Source: Limibacillus halophilus
GTDB taxonomy: Bacteria > Pseudomonadota > Alphaproteobacteria > Kiloniellales > CECT-8803
DNA length: 64,000 nt
NCBI RefSeq assembly: GCF_014191775.1
Contig: NZ_JACHXA010000003.1
Location: 372,001 to 436,000 of the forward strand
Reading direction: 5' to 3'
Position 1 is the first letter of the stretch. The number at the start of each line of letters is the position of its first letter. A model generated the notes under the pieces. It was not told the origin of the DNA. It saw only the letters and a list, made by a program, of their open reading frames with translations, and made no database searches. This document shows, piece after piece, positions 46,450-57,664 of the stretch. Made by a program: the position numbers and the translations under genes.

Positions 46450-46567
46450 AATCATCGCTCCCTTGGCTGCGGCTGGACCCAGGTCTAGTATGCCAACGGA
46501 CAGCGGCGCAAGCCCCGGCGATAAGTTGGCAATAGCAGCGTTATTCATTGCAGGGAGGAACCAAAGT

Positions 46568-46750
46568 ATGGATAGCGACGACCTGGAACCCCGCGCAAAG
46601 AAGGCCATTCTAAAAGACTTGGAAATCATGGGTGTTGCCGAGCTTGAAGATTATATCGCAGGGCTGCGGAGCGAGATCGAACGCGCTCAGGCCGTTATTG
46701 ATCGCAAGCAAAGCCACCGCGGTACCGCCGAAAGCCTTTTCAAGTCTTAA
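46568..46750 (+). CDS. DUF1192 small protein
   Basis: The 60-residue protein is acidic at the N-terminus and helical, with the DUF1192 core VAELEDYIAGLRSEIERAQAVI near 22-43, which looks like a short coiled coil. AGGGAGGA lies about eight bases upstream of the ATG at 46568. The family is restricted mainly to Alphaproteobacteria and has no known role. Its stop overlaps by four bases that of the converging small membrane protein gene. Confidence 0.88.
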   Translation: MDSDDLEPRAKKAILKDLEIMGVAELEDYIAGLRSEIERAQAVIDRKQSHRGTAESLFKS

Positions 46751-47925: not shown

Positions 47926-48077
47926 GGGGATCTACCAAGTCAATGCGAAGGCGGCTCATCTAGGATCCGCCCAAACCGCCAATAATGGAAACTCGTCCAA
48001 CAATCGACCCTGAATAAAGATCGCAATTATTTGCGTAAAATTTAATCAATTGTTAAGGACTTTAATATTATTGTAGA

Positions 48078-48177
48078 GCTGTACTCCGGTTGGACGGATA
48101 CCGGGGTCTTAACTCCCTCTTTTCGAAACCTCCCTGTCCTCTGGGCCGCCGATTAACAAAATCGACGGCCCTTTTCT
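48078..48177 (+). ncRNA. Candidate small RNA upstream of metY
   Basis: No coding frame with a product is visible here, but the plus strand shows a compact RNA-like order. A hairpin with eight-base arms (48083-48090 with 48100-48107, one G-U pair) is followed by an unpaired pyrimidine-rich stretch with CTCCCTCT at 48113 and CCTCCCTGT at 48129-48137, and then by a terminator stem (48143-48171) with a T-run. An AT-rich block lies just upstream (48020-48075), as expected for a promoter, though no clear -35 box is seen. The CTCCC motifs are complementary to Shine-Dalgarno sites, as in alphaproteobacterial trans-acting small RNAs. The start at about 48078 is an estimate. Confidence 0.6.
48143..48177 (+). 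terminator. Rho-independent terminator of the candidate small RNA
   Basis: GGGCCGCCGAT (48143-48153) pairs with ATCGACGGCCC (48161-48171) except for one C-A mismatch, with the loop TAACAAA. The stem is followed by TTTTCTT. It lies 218 bases after the bdhA stop and 210 bases before metY, so it fits an independent transcript better than bdhA. Confidence 0.82.
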
Positions 48178-48217
48178 TCGGTATTTCAATCTGTTAACTA
48201 TTTTGACACAAATGCGA

Positions 48218-50625: not shown

Positions 50626-51516
50626 ATGGATTGGGATAAGCTGCGAATATTTCACGCCGTTGCCGAGGCGGGCAGCTTCACCCATGCCGGTGATCAGCTT
50701 AACCTCAGTCAATCGGCGGTCAGCCGCCAGATCAGCGCGCTTGAGGACAGCCTCAATGTGACGCTGTTCCACAGGCATGCGCGCGGCTTGATTCTGACTG
50801 AACAGGGCGAACTGCTTTACCGTACGGCCCATGAAATTTTCGGAAAGCTTTCGATGGTCGAGGCCCAGCTTGCTGAAAGTAAGGATCGGCCGCGCGGTGC
50901 GCTCAAGATCACAACGACGGTTGCCTTTGGATCGACGTGGCTCGCGCCACGCATGCGCGAATTCATTGAGTTGTATCCGGATATTGAAACACACCTGATA
51001 TTAGCGGATCGGGAGCTTGACCTTTCGATGCGTGAAGCGGACGTCGCAATCCGGCTTTCCCCTCCCAGACAGGCAGACCTCGTGCAGCGGCACTTGCTGA
51101 CCGTCCACATCAATATCTACGCGTCGCCGCATTATCTGAAGAAAAGTTCGTCACCGGCATCCGCCAAGGATCTCGATAAACATCGACTGGTCGTTTATGG
51201 CGAGGATGCCCGCCCCCCCGTCCCGGATGTCAACTGGCTGCTGCGCATTGGCAACGACTCGGGGCAACTTCGCAAACCCGCGCTGACGGTGAACAACGTC
51301 TACGGCGTGATGCGCGCAGTGCAGGCCGGGGCCGGTCTTGGGGCCCTGCCGGAGTTCATGGCGCAGGGTTCGTCTGACCTCGTCCAAGTTCTTCCCGAGT
51401 TGACGGGACCCACCATTGACGCCTATTTCGTTTACCCTGAAGAGCTCCGCAGCTCCAAAAGAATCCAGGTTTTCAGGGACTTCCTATTACGCCACGTAAC
51501 GGCGCAGCGGTTCTAG
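50626..51516 (+). CDS. LysR-family transcriptional regulator
   Basis: The 296-residue protein has the LysR winged helix-turn-helix over residues 1-62 (WDKLRIFHAVAEAGSFTHAG and LSQSAVSRQISALE), followed by an effector-binding domain in two lobes (about 92-290). It ends with DAYFVYPEELRSSKRIQVF. The effector and target are unknown. It is 90 bases after the hydrolase gene and ends 128 bases before the structured RNA at 51645; a link to either is not proven. Confidence 0.92.
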   Translation: MDWDKLRIFHAVAEAGSFTHAGDQLNLSQSAVSRQISALEDSLNVTLFHRHARGLILTEQGELLYRTAHEIFGKLSMVEAQLAESKDRPRGALKITTTVAFGSTWLAPRMREFIELYPDIETHLILADRELDLSMREADVAIRLSPPRQADLVQRHLLTVHINIYASPHYLKKSSSPASAKDLDKHRLVVYGEDARPPVPDVNWLLRIGNDSGQLRKPALTVNNVYGVMRAVQAGAGLGALPEFMAQGSSDLVQVLPELTGPTIDAYFVYPEELRSSKRIQVFRDFLLRHVTAQRF

Positions 51517-51644
51517 AATCGGCATTTCAGGCGGGTCTGTTTAGTAGTTATATGGCATTTTCACCAAGCCATGCGCCACGTGCATGTCAATGCTGCTAAA
51601 TTTGGTGTGGTATAGCCGGCATCCATCATTATCTTGGGCTTATC

Positions 51645-51809
51645 GATGTTGCGTCGCAACATCAACCGGCTTGCCGACGTCCCCTCGTCGGCAAAGAGTT
51701 CCGGGCTCTTGGCCCGGAAGGGGTTCCTTTTTGGAATCCTACGTCTCCCAGACGTGAAGCCTCCCTGTTCAACTTGCCGGGAAATCGAAAGGTTTCCCGG
51801 CATTTTTTT
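51645..51809 (+). ncRNA. Candidate structured small RNA with six successive hairpins
   Basis: No gene product is recognisable here, but the plus strand is almost completely made of inverted repeats. In order they are 645-652/656-663 (eight-base arms GATGTTGC), 671-679/686-694 (nine-base arms, loop TCCCCT), 699-706/712-719 (eight-base arms TTCCGGGC), 722-727/733-739 (one bulge, loop TTTTT), 741-746/750-755 (ACGTCT, loop CCC) and the terminator 775-784/793-802 (all numbers plus 51000). Between the last two hairpins is unpaired GAAGCCTCCCTGTTC (51756-51770). The CCCC and CCTCCC stretches in loops and in the linker are complementary to Shine-Dalgarno sites, the layout of trans-acting alphaproteobacterial small RNAs. 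A 63-codon frame across it has no coding signs. The 5' end is estimated. Confidence 0.75.
51775..51809 (+). terminator. Rho-independent terminator of the structured RNA
   Basis: TGCCGGGAAA (51775-51784) and TTTCCCGGCA (51793-51802) pair perfectly over ten bases with loop TCGAAAGG, followed by seven T residues. It is the strongest terminator in the window and has no gene directly before it, since the LysR stop is 258 bases upstream. Confidence 0.93.
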
Positions 51810-51893
51810 CGGTGAGGTTGGCTGAGACTGCAAAAGTGGCGGGACGCCAGCACAAGAATATGGCATAGATGTGCGACGAGAATGGAGTGACAG

Positions 51894-55396: not shown

Positions 55397-57439
55397 CTAT
55401 TGTGCCGCCTGGCGAGCCTGAACCACCTGATCTGCCAATCTGCCTTGAAGTTCCTGCAGGTGATCAAAGACAGCGGTAAAATAGGCGGTACCCTGGGTCA
55501 AGCTCCGCAACTCTATGATGAGATCCTGAAGTTCGGATTCCGGCATGTAGGCCTGATGATCATCCCAACCCGTCCAACCCGCCTTACCGTCAAACCCCAG
55601 AATCTGGCCTCGACGGCTGCTTATCAGCCCATGAATACGGTTGGTGAAGCTTTGCGGAACAGAGATGGTCACGAGGTGTATTGGCTCCAGGAGCACGGGA
55701 TCACACTCGACGAGCGCGTCGGTTATTGCCTGACGCCCGCAAATCTTGAAAGCCTGATCGGAGCTATCTACCGAATGGTGTTGGCCGTCGTAGAGTTCAA
55801 CTTCCAGATCGACCACCTGAAAGCCCAGGGGACCGCGGACCAGGGATTCCCGAACGCCTGATTCAACCGCCGGGATGTAGTTGCGCGGCACCGATCCACC
55901 GACAACGCTATCGCTGAACTGGAAACCGCTACCCCGCTCGCGTGGCTTGATCCGAATCTTTATGTCGGCAAACTGCCCGTGGCCGCCACTCTGGCGCTTA
56001 TAGCGCGAATGATGATCGGCCGATCTGCGAATGGTCTCCTTGTAGCCGGTTTGCGGTCTGTCGGTACGAACGGCGACATTGAACTTATTCTTGAGACGCT
56101 CAACGGCTAGCTTCAGATGCACCTCGCCCTGGCCGCGCAACAGCAACTGCCCCGTATCCTCACGCATGATGCTGCTGATCGAGGGGTCCTCCTCAGCCAA
56201 CTTCGCCAAGCCAGCTGTCAACTTCACCTCATCCTGACGGTTCTCCGGCTCAACGGCCACGGCGTAGACCGGCTCGGGAGATTCCGGCTTTAACACATCC
56301 GGATAGGTGATGTTGGTTTCGTCGAATAACGCGCCGGTCACAAGGTTGTCTCGGCGACCCAACGCAACCAAGTCGCCACTTTCGGCCCGCGCCAGCTTTT
56401 CGGTTTCTCCCCCCATGACCCGGTAAAGTCCGGACAGACGCTCACCAACGACATTCGCGCCTTCTGCCAGCGGGCCGCGCCAGACCCTGGCCATGCTGAG
56501 TTTCCCTGTATGCGGATGGTGCTGCGTCGCCAAGACACTGGCAAGATAAGAGCCCTTGCCTTCCAACGACAGGCGCTTGGCCGTGGTTGCCGCCTCCGGC
56601 GCTTCATGCCGCAAGGCTTTCCAAAGCCGGGTTACACCGTTCTCCCGCTCCGCCGACCCCAGGAAAACCGGAACAATCAGATCCTGGCGCAGATCAGCGG
56701 CTAACTGTTGATAAACCTCCTGGGTCGCCGGAATCTTGTCTTCAAGCAACTGTTCAAGCAGGTCATCGTCAAAATCGGCCAGTGATTCCAATAGCTCTTG
56801 ACGGGCTTCGCCCTCGCGGTCACGCATCTCATCGGGCATCTCGATCAGATCCGAAGGCTGGCCTTCGCGATAAGCGTAAGCGCGTTCACTGACAAGATCG
56901 ACAAAGCCGGTAACGGCTTCGCCGTCACGAATTGGAACTTGGCGCAATACGAGCGGTTTTTCGGAAACCTCTTGCAATCCAGCCATTAGGTCGCGCGCGC
57001 GCAAATCGGACTTATCCATCTTGTTGACATAAACAACATGCGGAATGTTGTGGCTGTCCATGAACTTGAAGAGCGGTGCGAGGATAGCCAGGCGATCAAG
57101 ATTGGGTTCCGTCACGACAACCACGACATCTGCAACCAGCAGAGCTTGATACGATAGCTCCAGCAACTCTACCGAGCCGGGCGCATCGATCAGGTGCCAC
57201 GTCTCTCCCAAGAAACTGCAATGCGCGAAATTGAGCTCTGTGGACATGCCGTGCGATCGCGCTTCTGCGGACGCATCGCCGACCGTGGCGCCATCTTTGA
57301 CCGAACCCCGGCGCGGTATGGCGCCAGCGGCATGAAGCAGAGATTCGAGCAGCGTGGTCTTACCGCTGCCATAAGATCCGACAATGGCCGCGCAACGCGG
57401 CCCCGATTGGGCTTTTCCAGGCGACTCGCTATTCGGCAT
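55397..57439 (-). CDS. EF-G-like translational GTPase (paralogue)
   Basis: The 680-residue protein has the five-domain EF-G order: G domain (about 15-290), domain II (about 320-400), domain III, domain IV and V (to about 670, with the conserved VDLEVELYDGQHHSVDSSDQ near 565-585). P-loop GSYGSGKTT (21-29) and NKMD (139-142) are intact, but switch II reads DAPGS with S89 in place of the catalytic histidine of DTPGH. The G2 region is degenerate (GMSTELNFAH). It is therefore an EF-G2-like paralogue rather than the translocase. The ATG at 57439 follows GGGAGGA; an open stretch upstream to 57586 has no support. Confidence 0.9.
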   Translation of the reverse strand: MPNSESPGKAQSGPRCAAIVGSYGSGKTTLLESLLHAAGAIPRRGSVKDGATVGDASAEARSHGMSTELNFAHCSFLGETWHLIDAPGSVELLELSYQALLVADVVVVVTEPNLDRLAILAPLFKFMDSHNIPHVVYVNKMDKSDLRARDLMAGLQEVSEKPLVLRQVPIRDGEAVTGFVDLVSERAYAYREGQPSDLIEMPDEMRDREGEARQELLESLADFDDDLLEQLLEDKIPATQEVYQQLAADLRQDLIVPVFLGSAERENGVTRLWKALRHEAPEAATTAKRLSLEGKGSYLASVLATQHHPHTGKLSMARVWRGPLAEGANVVGERLSGLYRVMGGETEKLARAESGDLVALGRRDNLVTGALFDETNITYPDVLKPESPEPVYAVAVEPENRQDEVKLTAGLAKLAEEDPSISSIMREDTGQLLLRGQGEVHLKLAVERLKNKFNVAVRTDRPQTGYKETIRRSADHHSRYKRQSGGHGQFADIKIRIKPRERGSGFQFSDSVVGGSVPRNYIPAVESGVRESLVRGPLGFQVVDLEVELYDGQHHSVDSSDQAFKICGRQAITDALVECDPVLLEPIHLVTISVPQSFTNRIHGLISSRRGQILGFDGKAGWTGWDDHQAYMPESELQDLIIELRSLTQGTAYFTAVFDHLQELQGRLADQVVQARQAAQ

Positions 57440-57664
57440 GACATCCTCCCTGTGCTGCGCTCGCTCTAACGAGTGCGCACCCGCCCTACGCGAAGGATAT
57501 CGCGGAGGCGGACTGCCCCCGTACGCGGCGTCTTGTATCGTTTTACAGGATTCAGTCTGAGCAATTTGCCCAGCACACGCAAGCATCCCGCACCCGACGC
57601 TGGTTAGGGCACCGGTCGAATTGATTCTACTGCGCTTCCGTGAAACCCTTGTTCCCTGCGCGGG

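Follow-up and report, generated by a model that had tools for sequence, protein, structure and literature searches.

The window analysed here is the whole 64-kb stretch of DNA from Limibacillus halophilus, and the locus of interest lies on its plus strand, where the gene for a LysR-type regulator is followed by promoter-like elements, a tandem series of six hairpins (H1 to H5 and a terminator) and a further short gene. The features are as follows.

50626-51516, plus strand: LysR-type regulator gene, LsrB/VtlR-like (Pfam LysR_substrate and HTH_1), directly upstream of the RNA
51582-51595, plus strand: candidate LsrB/VtlR box GCATGTCAATGCTG, fitting the group's pattern GCATRNC-N5-TG
51608-51613, plus strand: probable -35 element TGGTAT, followed by a 16-nt spacer; the aligned T is present in 47/55 and the G in 48/55 homologues
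51630-51635, plus strand: probable -10 element TATCTT; a T/A-rich hexamer lies at about the same distance in the 61 upstream regions compared
51645-51663, plus strand: 5' hairpin H1, 8 bp with a 3-nt loop
51647-51661, plus strand: PhaR-type operator TGTTGCGTCGCAACA, within H1, an exact match to TGYTGCNNNGCARCA
51664-51740, plus strand: variable middle domain, here made up of H2, H3 and H4
51672-51693, plus strand: H2, with TCCCCT in its loop
51699-51719, plus strand: H3
51720-51740, plus strand: H4
51741-51755, plus strand: H5, ACGTCT-CCC-AGACGT, 6 bp with a CCC loop, near-invariant in a 47-sequence alignment
51756-51774, plus strand: single-stranded, near-invariant linker GAAGCCTCCCTGTTCAACT, which contains CCTCCC and is the presumed anti-Shine–Dalgarno seed
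51775-51809, plus strand: Rho-independent terminator, with a 12-pair stem at 51775-51802 (one G-U pair; ten perfect pairs) and T7 at 51803-51809
3' of the terminator: downstream gene of 106 amino acids

The original prediction described 51645-51809 as a terminator-ended, non-coding RNA with anti-Shine–Dalgarno motifs. The six hairpins were indeed present in tandem on the plus strand at these coordinates, as were the terminator stem and the seven T residues, and the C-rich motifs that had been singled out were found as TCCCCT in the loop of H2, CCC in that of H5 and CCTCCC in the linker. Folding of 51645-51815 gave a minimum free energy of -88.4 kcal/mol against a mean of -54.3 (SD 3.9) for dinucleotide shuffles, i.e. 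a z-score of -8.82, with none of 200 shuffles folding equally well, and in the centroid structure nearly all bases of the linker were unpaired. The sequence of the RNA is present as a single copy in its genome. Its proposed nature is further supported by the invariance of the linker, by hairpins that are kept despite sequence change and by the promoter-like elements that precede the 5' end.

The RNA sequence found matches in 54 of the 58 genomes of a set of relatives drawn from eight families of the order, and in these a core of approximately 40–45 nt was near-identical; the constant part of the RNA is TCCTACGTCTCCCAGACGTGAAGCCTCCCTGTTCAACTTGCCGGG, and its 3' module hardly varies within the order. 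When named genomes were scanned with the core pattern, at least 120 stretches were found, and among the matches listed (80 titles) most came from Rhodospirillales-type or unclassified Alphaproteobacteria, for example Pelagibius, Nisaea, Tistlia, Oceanibaculum and Dongia. Cultivable relatives that carry the locus include Pelagibius litoralis (L088), Nisaea denitrificans (L046) and Oceanibaculum pacificum (L074). With a covariance model built from the 3' module, 197 of 385 alphaproteobacterial genomes were matched at E ≤ 0.001, matches among which sibling genes can be included. Two contigs labelled Planctomycetota and Nitrosomonadales (L052 and L094) also matched the core pattern, without the H5 sequence, and are probably chance matches or misbinned.

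Comparisons were made with 119 distinct homologues (150 matches, from which 31 duplicates had been dropped) and with a class-wide set of 70 loci. Of the latter, 30 were chosen automatically and 40 picked by hand in order of rank, with a single locus for each genome; the denominators include contigs too short to show an upstream gene. The 3' module was aligned for 47 of 57 reference sequences. Within it, six of the seven pairs counted in the H5 stem never vary, and the terminator covaries: 98.6% of cells were paired, compared with 90.3% in shuffles, the covariation score was 0.229 as opposed to 0.091, and three of eight counted terminator pairs changed on both sides. Compensatory change had been proposed as a check on the RNA; both paired cells and covariation score exceeded those of shuffles, but pairs changed on both sides were no more frequent (3 in the 3' module versus 2.5 in shuffles). 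As for the frame of 63 codons that overlaps the region, a coding role is not supported: among 61 homologues, the spacing between the 5' end and CCTCCC is spread over the three phases (14, 21 and 26), and we have rejected this coding frame because the phase of the conserved linker is not kept. A stop-free frame of some kind runs through the RNA in 49 of the same 61 homologues, so that its presence here is uninformative.

The segment between the first hairpin and H5 is unconserved in sequence and varies from 21 to 112 nt in length, and its hairpins differ in number and sequence yet remain hairpins. Folds and loops were counted in the 57 of 61 members that contain ACGTCT. The median z-score of the middle segment was -3.73, with values below -2 in 54/57 homologues, whereas upstream control DNA of the same length gave a median of +0.06 and values below -2 in 4/56. 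The six-hairpin plan of the original prediction describes this locus correctly but is not fixed, as three hairpins were predicted in 2 members, four in 15, five in 20, six in 22 and seven in 2. CCC was present in 39 of 124 middle loops and GGG in none, a strand asymmetry that fits a plus-strand RNA with anti-Shine–Dalgarno loops, and 24 of the 57 members had at least one loop of the CCC type. We also applied RNAalifold to 11 sequences of similar length, these being 11 of the 14 references (among 57) in which the operator lies 105–114 nt before the linker (L056, L030 and L077 were excluded). H1, H3, H5 and the terminator were recovered, and for 7 of 31 pairs at least one sequence had a change on each side. 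This alignment did not yield H2 and H4, probably because MAFFT fails to align them.

The product of the upstream LysR gene had as its best match in the PDB 9hh1, at 332 bits, the next match scoring 123 bits; 9HH1 is Agrobacterium tumefaciens LsrB, to which the window protein is approximately 50% identical. A LysR gene followed on the same strand, within 700 nt, by the sRNA was found at 51 of 61 operator-bearing loci but at 18 of 58 others, and a LysR gene adjoins the RNA in 50 of the 70 class-wide loci. In the window the LysR gene ends approximately 126 nt before the inferred RNA start. This start was placed near 51642 because TATCTT ends 9 nt before H1. A scan for a strict sigma-70 consensus found no promoter here, and a sigma-54 promoter was considered for the GCATGGC element and dropped, as its spacing looked too short.

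The published LsrB/VtlR box, GCAT-N3-TG-N3-T, lies at -61 to -49 of PabcR1, and the motif described in Brucella abortus is CAATGCAGCCATGCA, which on the other strand reads TGCATGGCTGCATTG. Promoters of the homologues show a similar box at the published position. GCAT[AG]NC was found before the promoter in 55 of 61 homologues, followed five bases on by T in 53/55 and G in 49/55, and the distance from GCAT to H1 is 59–67 nt in 54 of the 55 box-bearing members, which agrees with the published position. One mismatch or fewer to the published box was seen in the expected interval in 40/61 homologues, compared with 5.5% of shuffles; among the 61, which include the window, a further 20 had two mismatches and one had three. 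The window box itself has two, a number reached by 33% of shuffles and so not significant alone, and its assignment therefore rests on alignment with relatives.

The first hairpin coincides with a second regulatory element. The exact match to TGYTGCNNNGCARCA, which we take to be the PhaR motif, is the only one in the window and begins approximately 4 nt after the inferred start. The original prediction recorded H1 correctly as an inverted repeat forming a hairpin but missed that it is also a palindrome of protein-binding type. The motif was found exactly in 55 of the 119 distinct homologues and with one mismatch in 6 more, and its distance to the linker ranges from 56 to 148 nt. Across the 3.48-Mb genome there were seven operator-motif sites, as opposed to one for the reversed pattern. 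Two lie inside genes, as read from ORFs, one is the RNA locus, and one is at a phasin gene (identified by Pfam and NCBIfam; L037, G000:C10:13306-13320), where the PhaR-type operator follows closely after a -10-like element in a geometry much like that of the sRNA. Three more such palindromes are apparently intergenic, located by a GNAT-like gene (L031), upstream of a carD-like gene (L033) and between genes for a patatin and an enoyl-CoA-hydratase-like protein (L035), the neighbours, patatin excepted, being named from a reading of ORFs.

The genome encodes PhaR, near a PhaC-like ORF. In the class-wide set, 32 of 70 copies had the operator with one mismatch or fewer, and PhaR was found in 31 of these 32 genomes compared with 28 of the 38 others (p 0.009, with related genomes counted apart); the sole operator-bearing genome without it (G281) is 70% complete and has an exact operator. 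In the remaining 38 copies the best operator-like site had two or more mismatches, and PhaR control is therefore not universal. Since H1 is at once a hairpin and an operator-type palindrome, RNA structure cannot be taken as the sole cause of changes on both of its sides, and we set its covariation aside as evidence for the RNA because a DNA operator palindrome would give the identical pattern. For Sinorhizobium meliloti, a palindromic PhaR motif has been described, gel shifts showed PhaR binding to the promoters of phaP1, phaP2 and phaZ and to that of the sRNA gene mmgR, and granules of polyhydroxybutyrate (PHB) were shown to titrate PhaR.

The exact complement of eight linker bases, CAGGGAGG, lies 3–10 nt before an ATG at 17 sites in the genome, versus 4 for the reversed pattern, although several of the 17 precede no real gene. 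The genes at these sites include phaB, two encoding ABC substrate-binding proteins, an EF-G-like gene and a short-chain dehydrogenase. Within the window such complements form the ribosome-binding sites of the EF-G-like gene (57437-57452, minus strand) and of a 60-aa ORF (46551-46570, plus strand). The phaB gene is approximately 3.4 kb from phaR, and its ribosome-binding site is the exact 8-nt complement of the linker. A complement of at least 7 nt was present in 12 of 30 phaB leaders, these being the best-scoring of 58 matches and some of them from near-identical genomes, compared with 7 of 72 control leaders, whose start codons are uncertain (p 0.0013); with the phaB of this genome excluded, the count was 11/29 (p 0.003). 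Three of the 30 leaders had complements of 4 nt or less. These data are suggestive only of phaB as a target, because PHB genes drew attention once PhaR was suspected, because near-identical genomes were included and because a strong Shine–Dalgarno sequence pairs with any C-rich RNA. The phasin gene was considered as a target and rejected, its leader giving only a modest duplex (-16 kcal/mol).

The original prediction had not recognized the six-hairpin architecture as a known family, and a search of the 64-kb window against Rfam at gathering thresholds gave no match. In a lax scan, the plus-strand matches that share the linker were to SorX (28.5 bits; threshold 46.6), MmgR/suhB (18.9 bits; threshold 41) and BjrC1505 (18.6 bits; threshold 50). 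A match to NmsRb of Neisseria (23.8 bits; threshold 52) and a minus-strand match to SorX (17.3 bits) were taken as chance. CcsR RNAs, which the original prediction had named for comparison, have anti-Shine–Dalgarno loops, and no CcsR family was among the seven matches listed from Rfam with E values of 10 or less. According to a published account, CcsR1–4 derive from the 3' UTR of ccaF1.

BjrC1505 (RF02356) resembles the window RNA in its several hairpins, its GCCUCCCUGUU-UCAACUU linker and its terminator. We have rejected membership of this family, given the sub-threshold score; BjrC1505 is more likely a sibling gene, near metC, and the model had no match in this genome (G000) at E ≤ 0.001. 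At 13 BjrC1505-type loci, the nine in which the linker was located had no operator (three or more mismatches), and two of the loci were by a metC-like gene; in the named-genome set, eight core matches without the operator lay just upstream of metC. A sibling-like element upstream of metC is also present in the window at 48060-48180 (plus strand), where a AACCTCCCTGTCC linker precedes an inverted repeat of terminator-like form and a T-rich stretch; siblings in other genomes occupy the same metC-upstream position. The 3' module thus appears to be common to a group of sibling genes, and the window RNA is its LysR-adjacent member.

Parallels also exist with AbcR1 and NfeR1, LsrB-activated sRNAs of rhizobia, for which a sigma-70 promoter preceded by an LsrB box, C-rich anti-Shine–Dalgarno seeds and ABC-transporter targets have been described. 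The published passages concerned make no mention of PhaR control of AbcR1 or NfeR1, which would set the window RNA apart. The ar15 model (RF02345) was absent from the lax Rfam matches and had no match in 142 genomes of the class, but the controls were equally blank, so that this search says nothing about its absence. Open-licence papers yielded no LysR-adjacent sRNA of this kind, nor one under LsrB and PhaR together. By the measure of Rfam the RNA represents a new family; its kind (anti-Shine–Dalgarno, trans-acting sRNA) is known, and its regulatory start is unusual.

A bacterial small RNA that is widely conserved, and whose gene neighbours that of a stress regulator, is very probably encoded here. 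Its sequence, conservation, folding statistics, synteny and motif matches and the presence of phaR have been observed; transcription, the binding of both regulators, the use of Hfq and the targets we infer. Our working hypothesis, which we consider reasonably probable, is that this is a trans-acting anti-Shine–Dalgarno sRNA that the LsrB-type regulator turns on and PhaR turns off and that feeds back on PHB metabolism and ABC transporters. The RNA, of about 165–170 nt, would be transcribed from its own promoter, which the neighbouring LsrB/VtlR-type regulator would activate through a box with its centre near -54. Repression would come from PhaR, which senses PHB granules, at the operator, whose transcript would form the 5' hairpin, and granule build-up would titrate PhaR and so release the sRNA. 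The linker GAAGCCUCCCUGUUCAAC, perhaps together with C-rich hairpin loops, may then pair with the ribosome-binding sites of chosen mRNAs and block their translation, plausibly with the assistance of Hfq; phaB and the genes for ABC-transporter binding proteins are the candidate targets. The middle hairpins probably stabilize the RNA and carry extra seeds. More tentatively, we propose that an LsrB-like LysR regulator and this sRNA may be an ancient, class-wide pair, operating as a two-input gate in which a redox- or host-signal regulator acts to turn on and PhaR to turn off, with the operator transcribed as the 5' hairpin and with C-loop modules gained and lost to retune the targets.

The 5' part may, however, be a precursor only, from which RNase E would release the 3' module of 75 nt, with H1–H4 serving in processing or stability; we give this a substantial, if less than even, chance of being correct. 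The model for it is SorX (RF02784) of Rhodobacter sphaeroides, reported to be cut from a 116-nt precursor (pre-SorX) to 75 nt and to derive from the 3' UTR of the ompR mRNA. SorX, the best of the Rfam scores, shares with the window RNA the CCUCCCUGUU linker and the terminator, over 51736-51808, though below threshold, and when 18 of 30 relative loci were scanned only one (L024) exceeded the threshold, at 50.3 bits. Sequence is kept, moreover, in H1 and the 3' module only and not in the middle. On the other hand, the middle hairpins are maintained in nearly all members and have C-rich loops, suggesting more than a discarded leader, and the window RNA, with a LysR-type gene upstream of it where SorX comes from ompR mRNA, has conserved promoter-like elements.

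It is also conceivable, but unlikely, that the origin of the RNA is linked to the upstream LysR gene on the same strand, as the SorX precedent, the short distance between the two and their class-wide pairing would allow. This sits poorly with the conserved box, -35-like and -10-like elements that lie between the genes at a set spacing from H1, and with the tandem copies of Methylocystaceae, each of which has its own operator-like palindrome and the second of which does not directly follow LysR. These copies, on the contig L100 (1006-1428), are approximately 280 nt apart.

Comparison with MmgR (suhB, RF00519, alpha-r8) of S. meliloti, which the original prediction had suggested, proved apt, as the 3' module is shared and PhaR control of MmgR has been demonstrated in that species. 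Both RNAs have the order hairpin, CUCCCU linker, AACUU and terminator, and PhaR-type palindromes occur at many suhB-family promoters, just as an exact one occurs here. That the locus merely represents this lineage's copy of MmgR/suhB is nevertheless highly improbable and is already contradicted: for the window RNA, the match to RF00519 (51736-51816) is far below threshold, and the genome has a separate 55.6-bit MmgR match (L202, G000:C3:370052-370126, minus strand), 1.9 kb to the left of the window, on which ground the identification was rejected. The window RNA is, in addition, longer (about 168 nt by inferred length, compared with 77 nt), and its palindrome closely follows the -10 element, whereas that of MmgR type lies between -35 and -10. 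No LysR gene was found at any of 31 suhB loci examined and no strict LsrB-type box at any of 27 that could be anchored. The MmgR/suhB promoter at L202 has the PhaR-like palindrome TTTTGCAGTGCGGCA, with similar palindromes at many MmgR-family loci across the class. Least credible of all is that the palindromes are purely structural, an attenuator or REP-like array acting in cis on the 106-aa gene, for although strong hairpins and a terminator lie just upstream of this ORF, the linker is near-invariant and unpaired, the sequence is single-copy and, of the loci searched (for which the downstream sequence available was limited), none but this genome and L004 showed the gene, whereas the RNA is present in 54/58 genomes of the relatives set.

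Control of sRNAs by LsrB/VtlR has been described in rhizobia, Agrobacterium and Brucella, and in one paper LsrB is called unique to Rhizobiales. If an LsrB-type LysR regulator does accompany an anti-Shine–Dalgarno sRNA across much of the class, this wiring would look ancestral, and if PhaR does act at the start site, the RNA would join MmgR as a second sRNA that responds to PHB and would connect carbon storage with stress sensing and nutrient uptake. The locus may thus couple gene silencing to stress and to the storage of carbon. Elsewhere in the same genome there is a sub-threshold match of 35.4 bits to ar14 (RF02344; L278, G000:C1:149337-149434), the family to which the LsrB-activated NfeR1 presumably belongs.
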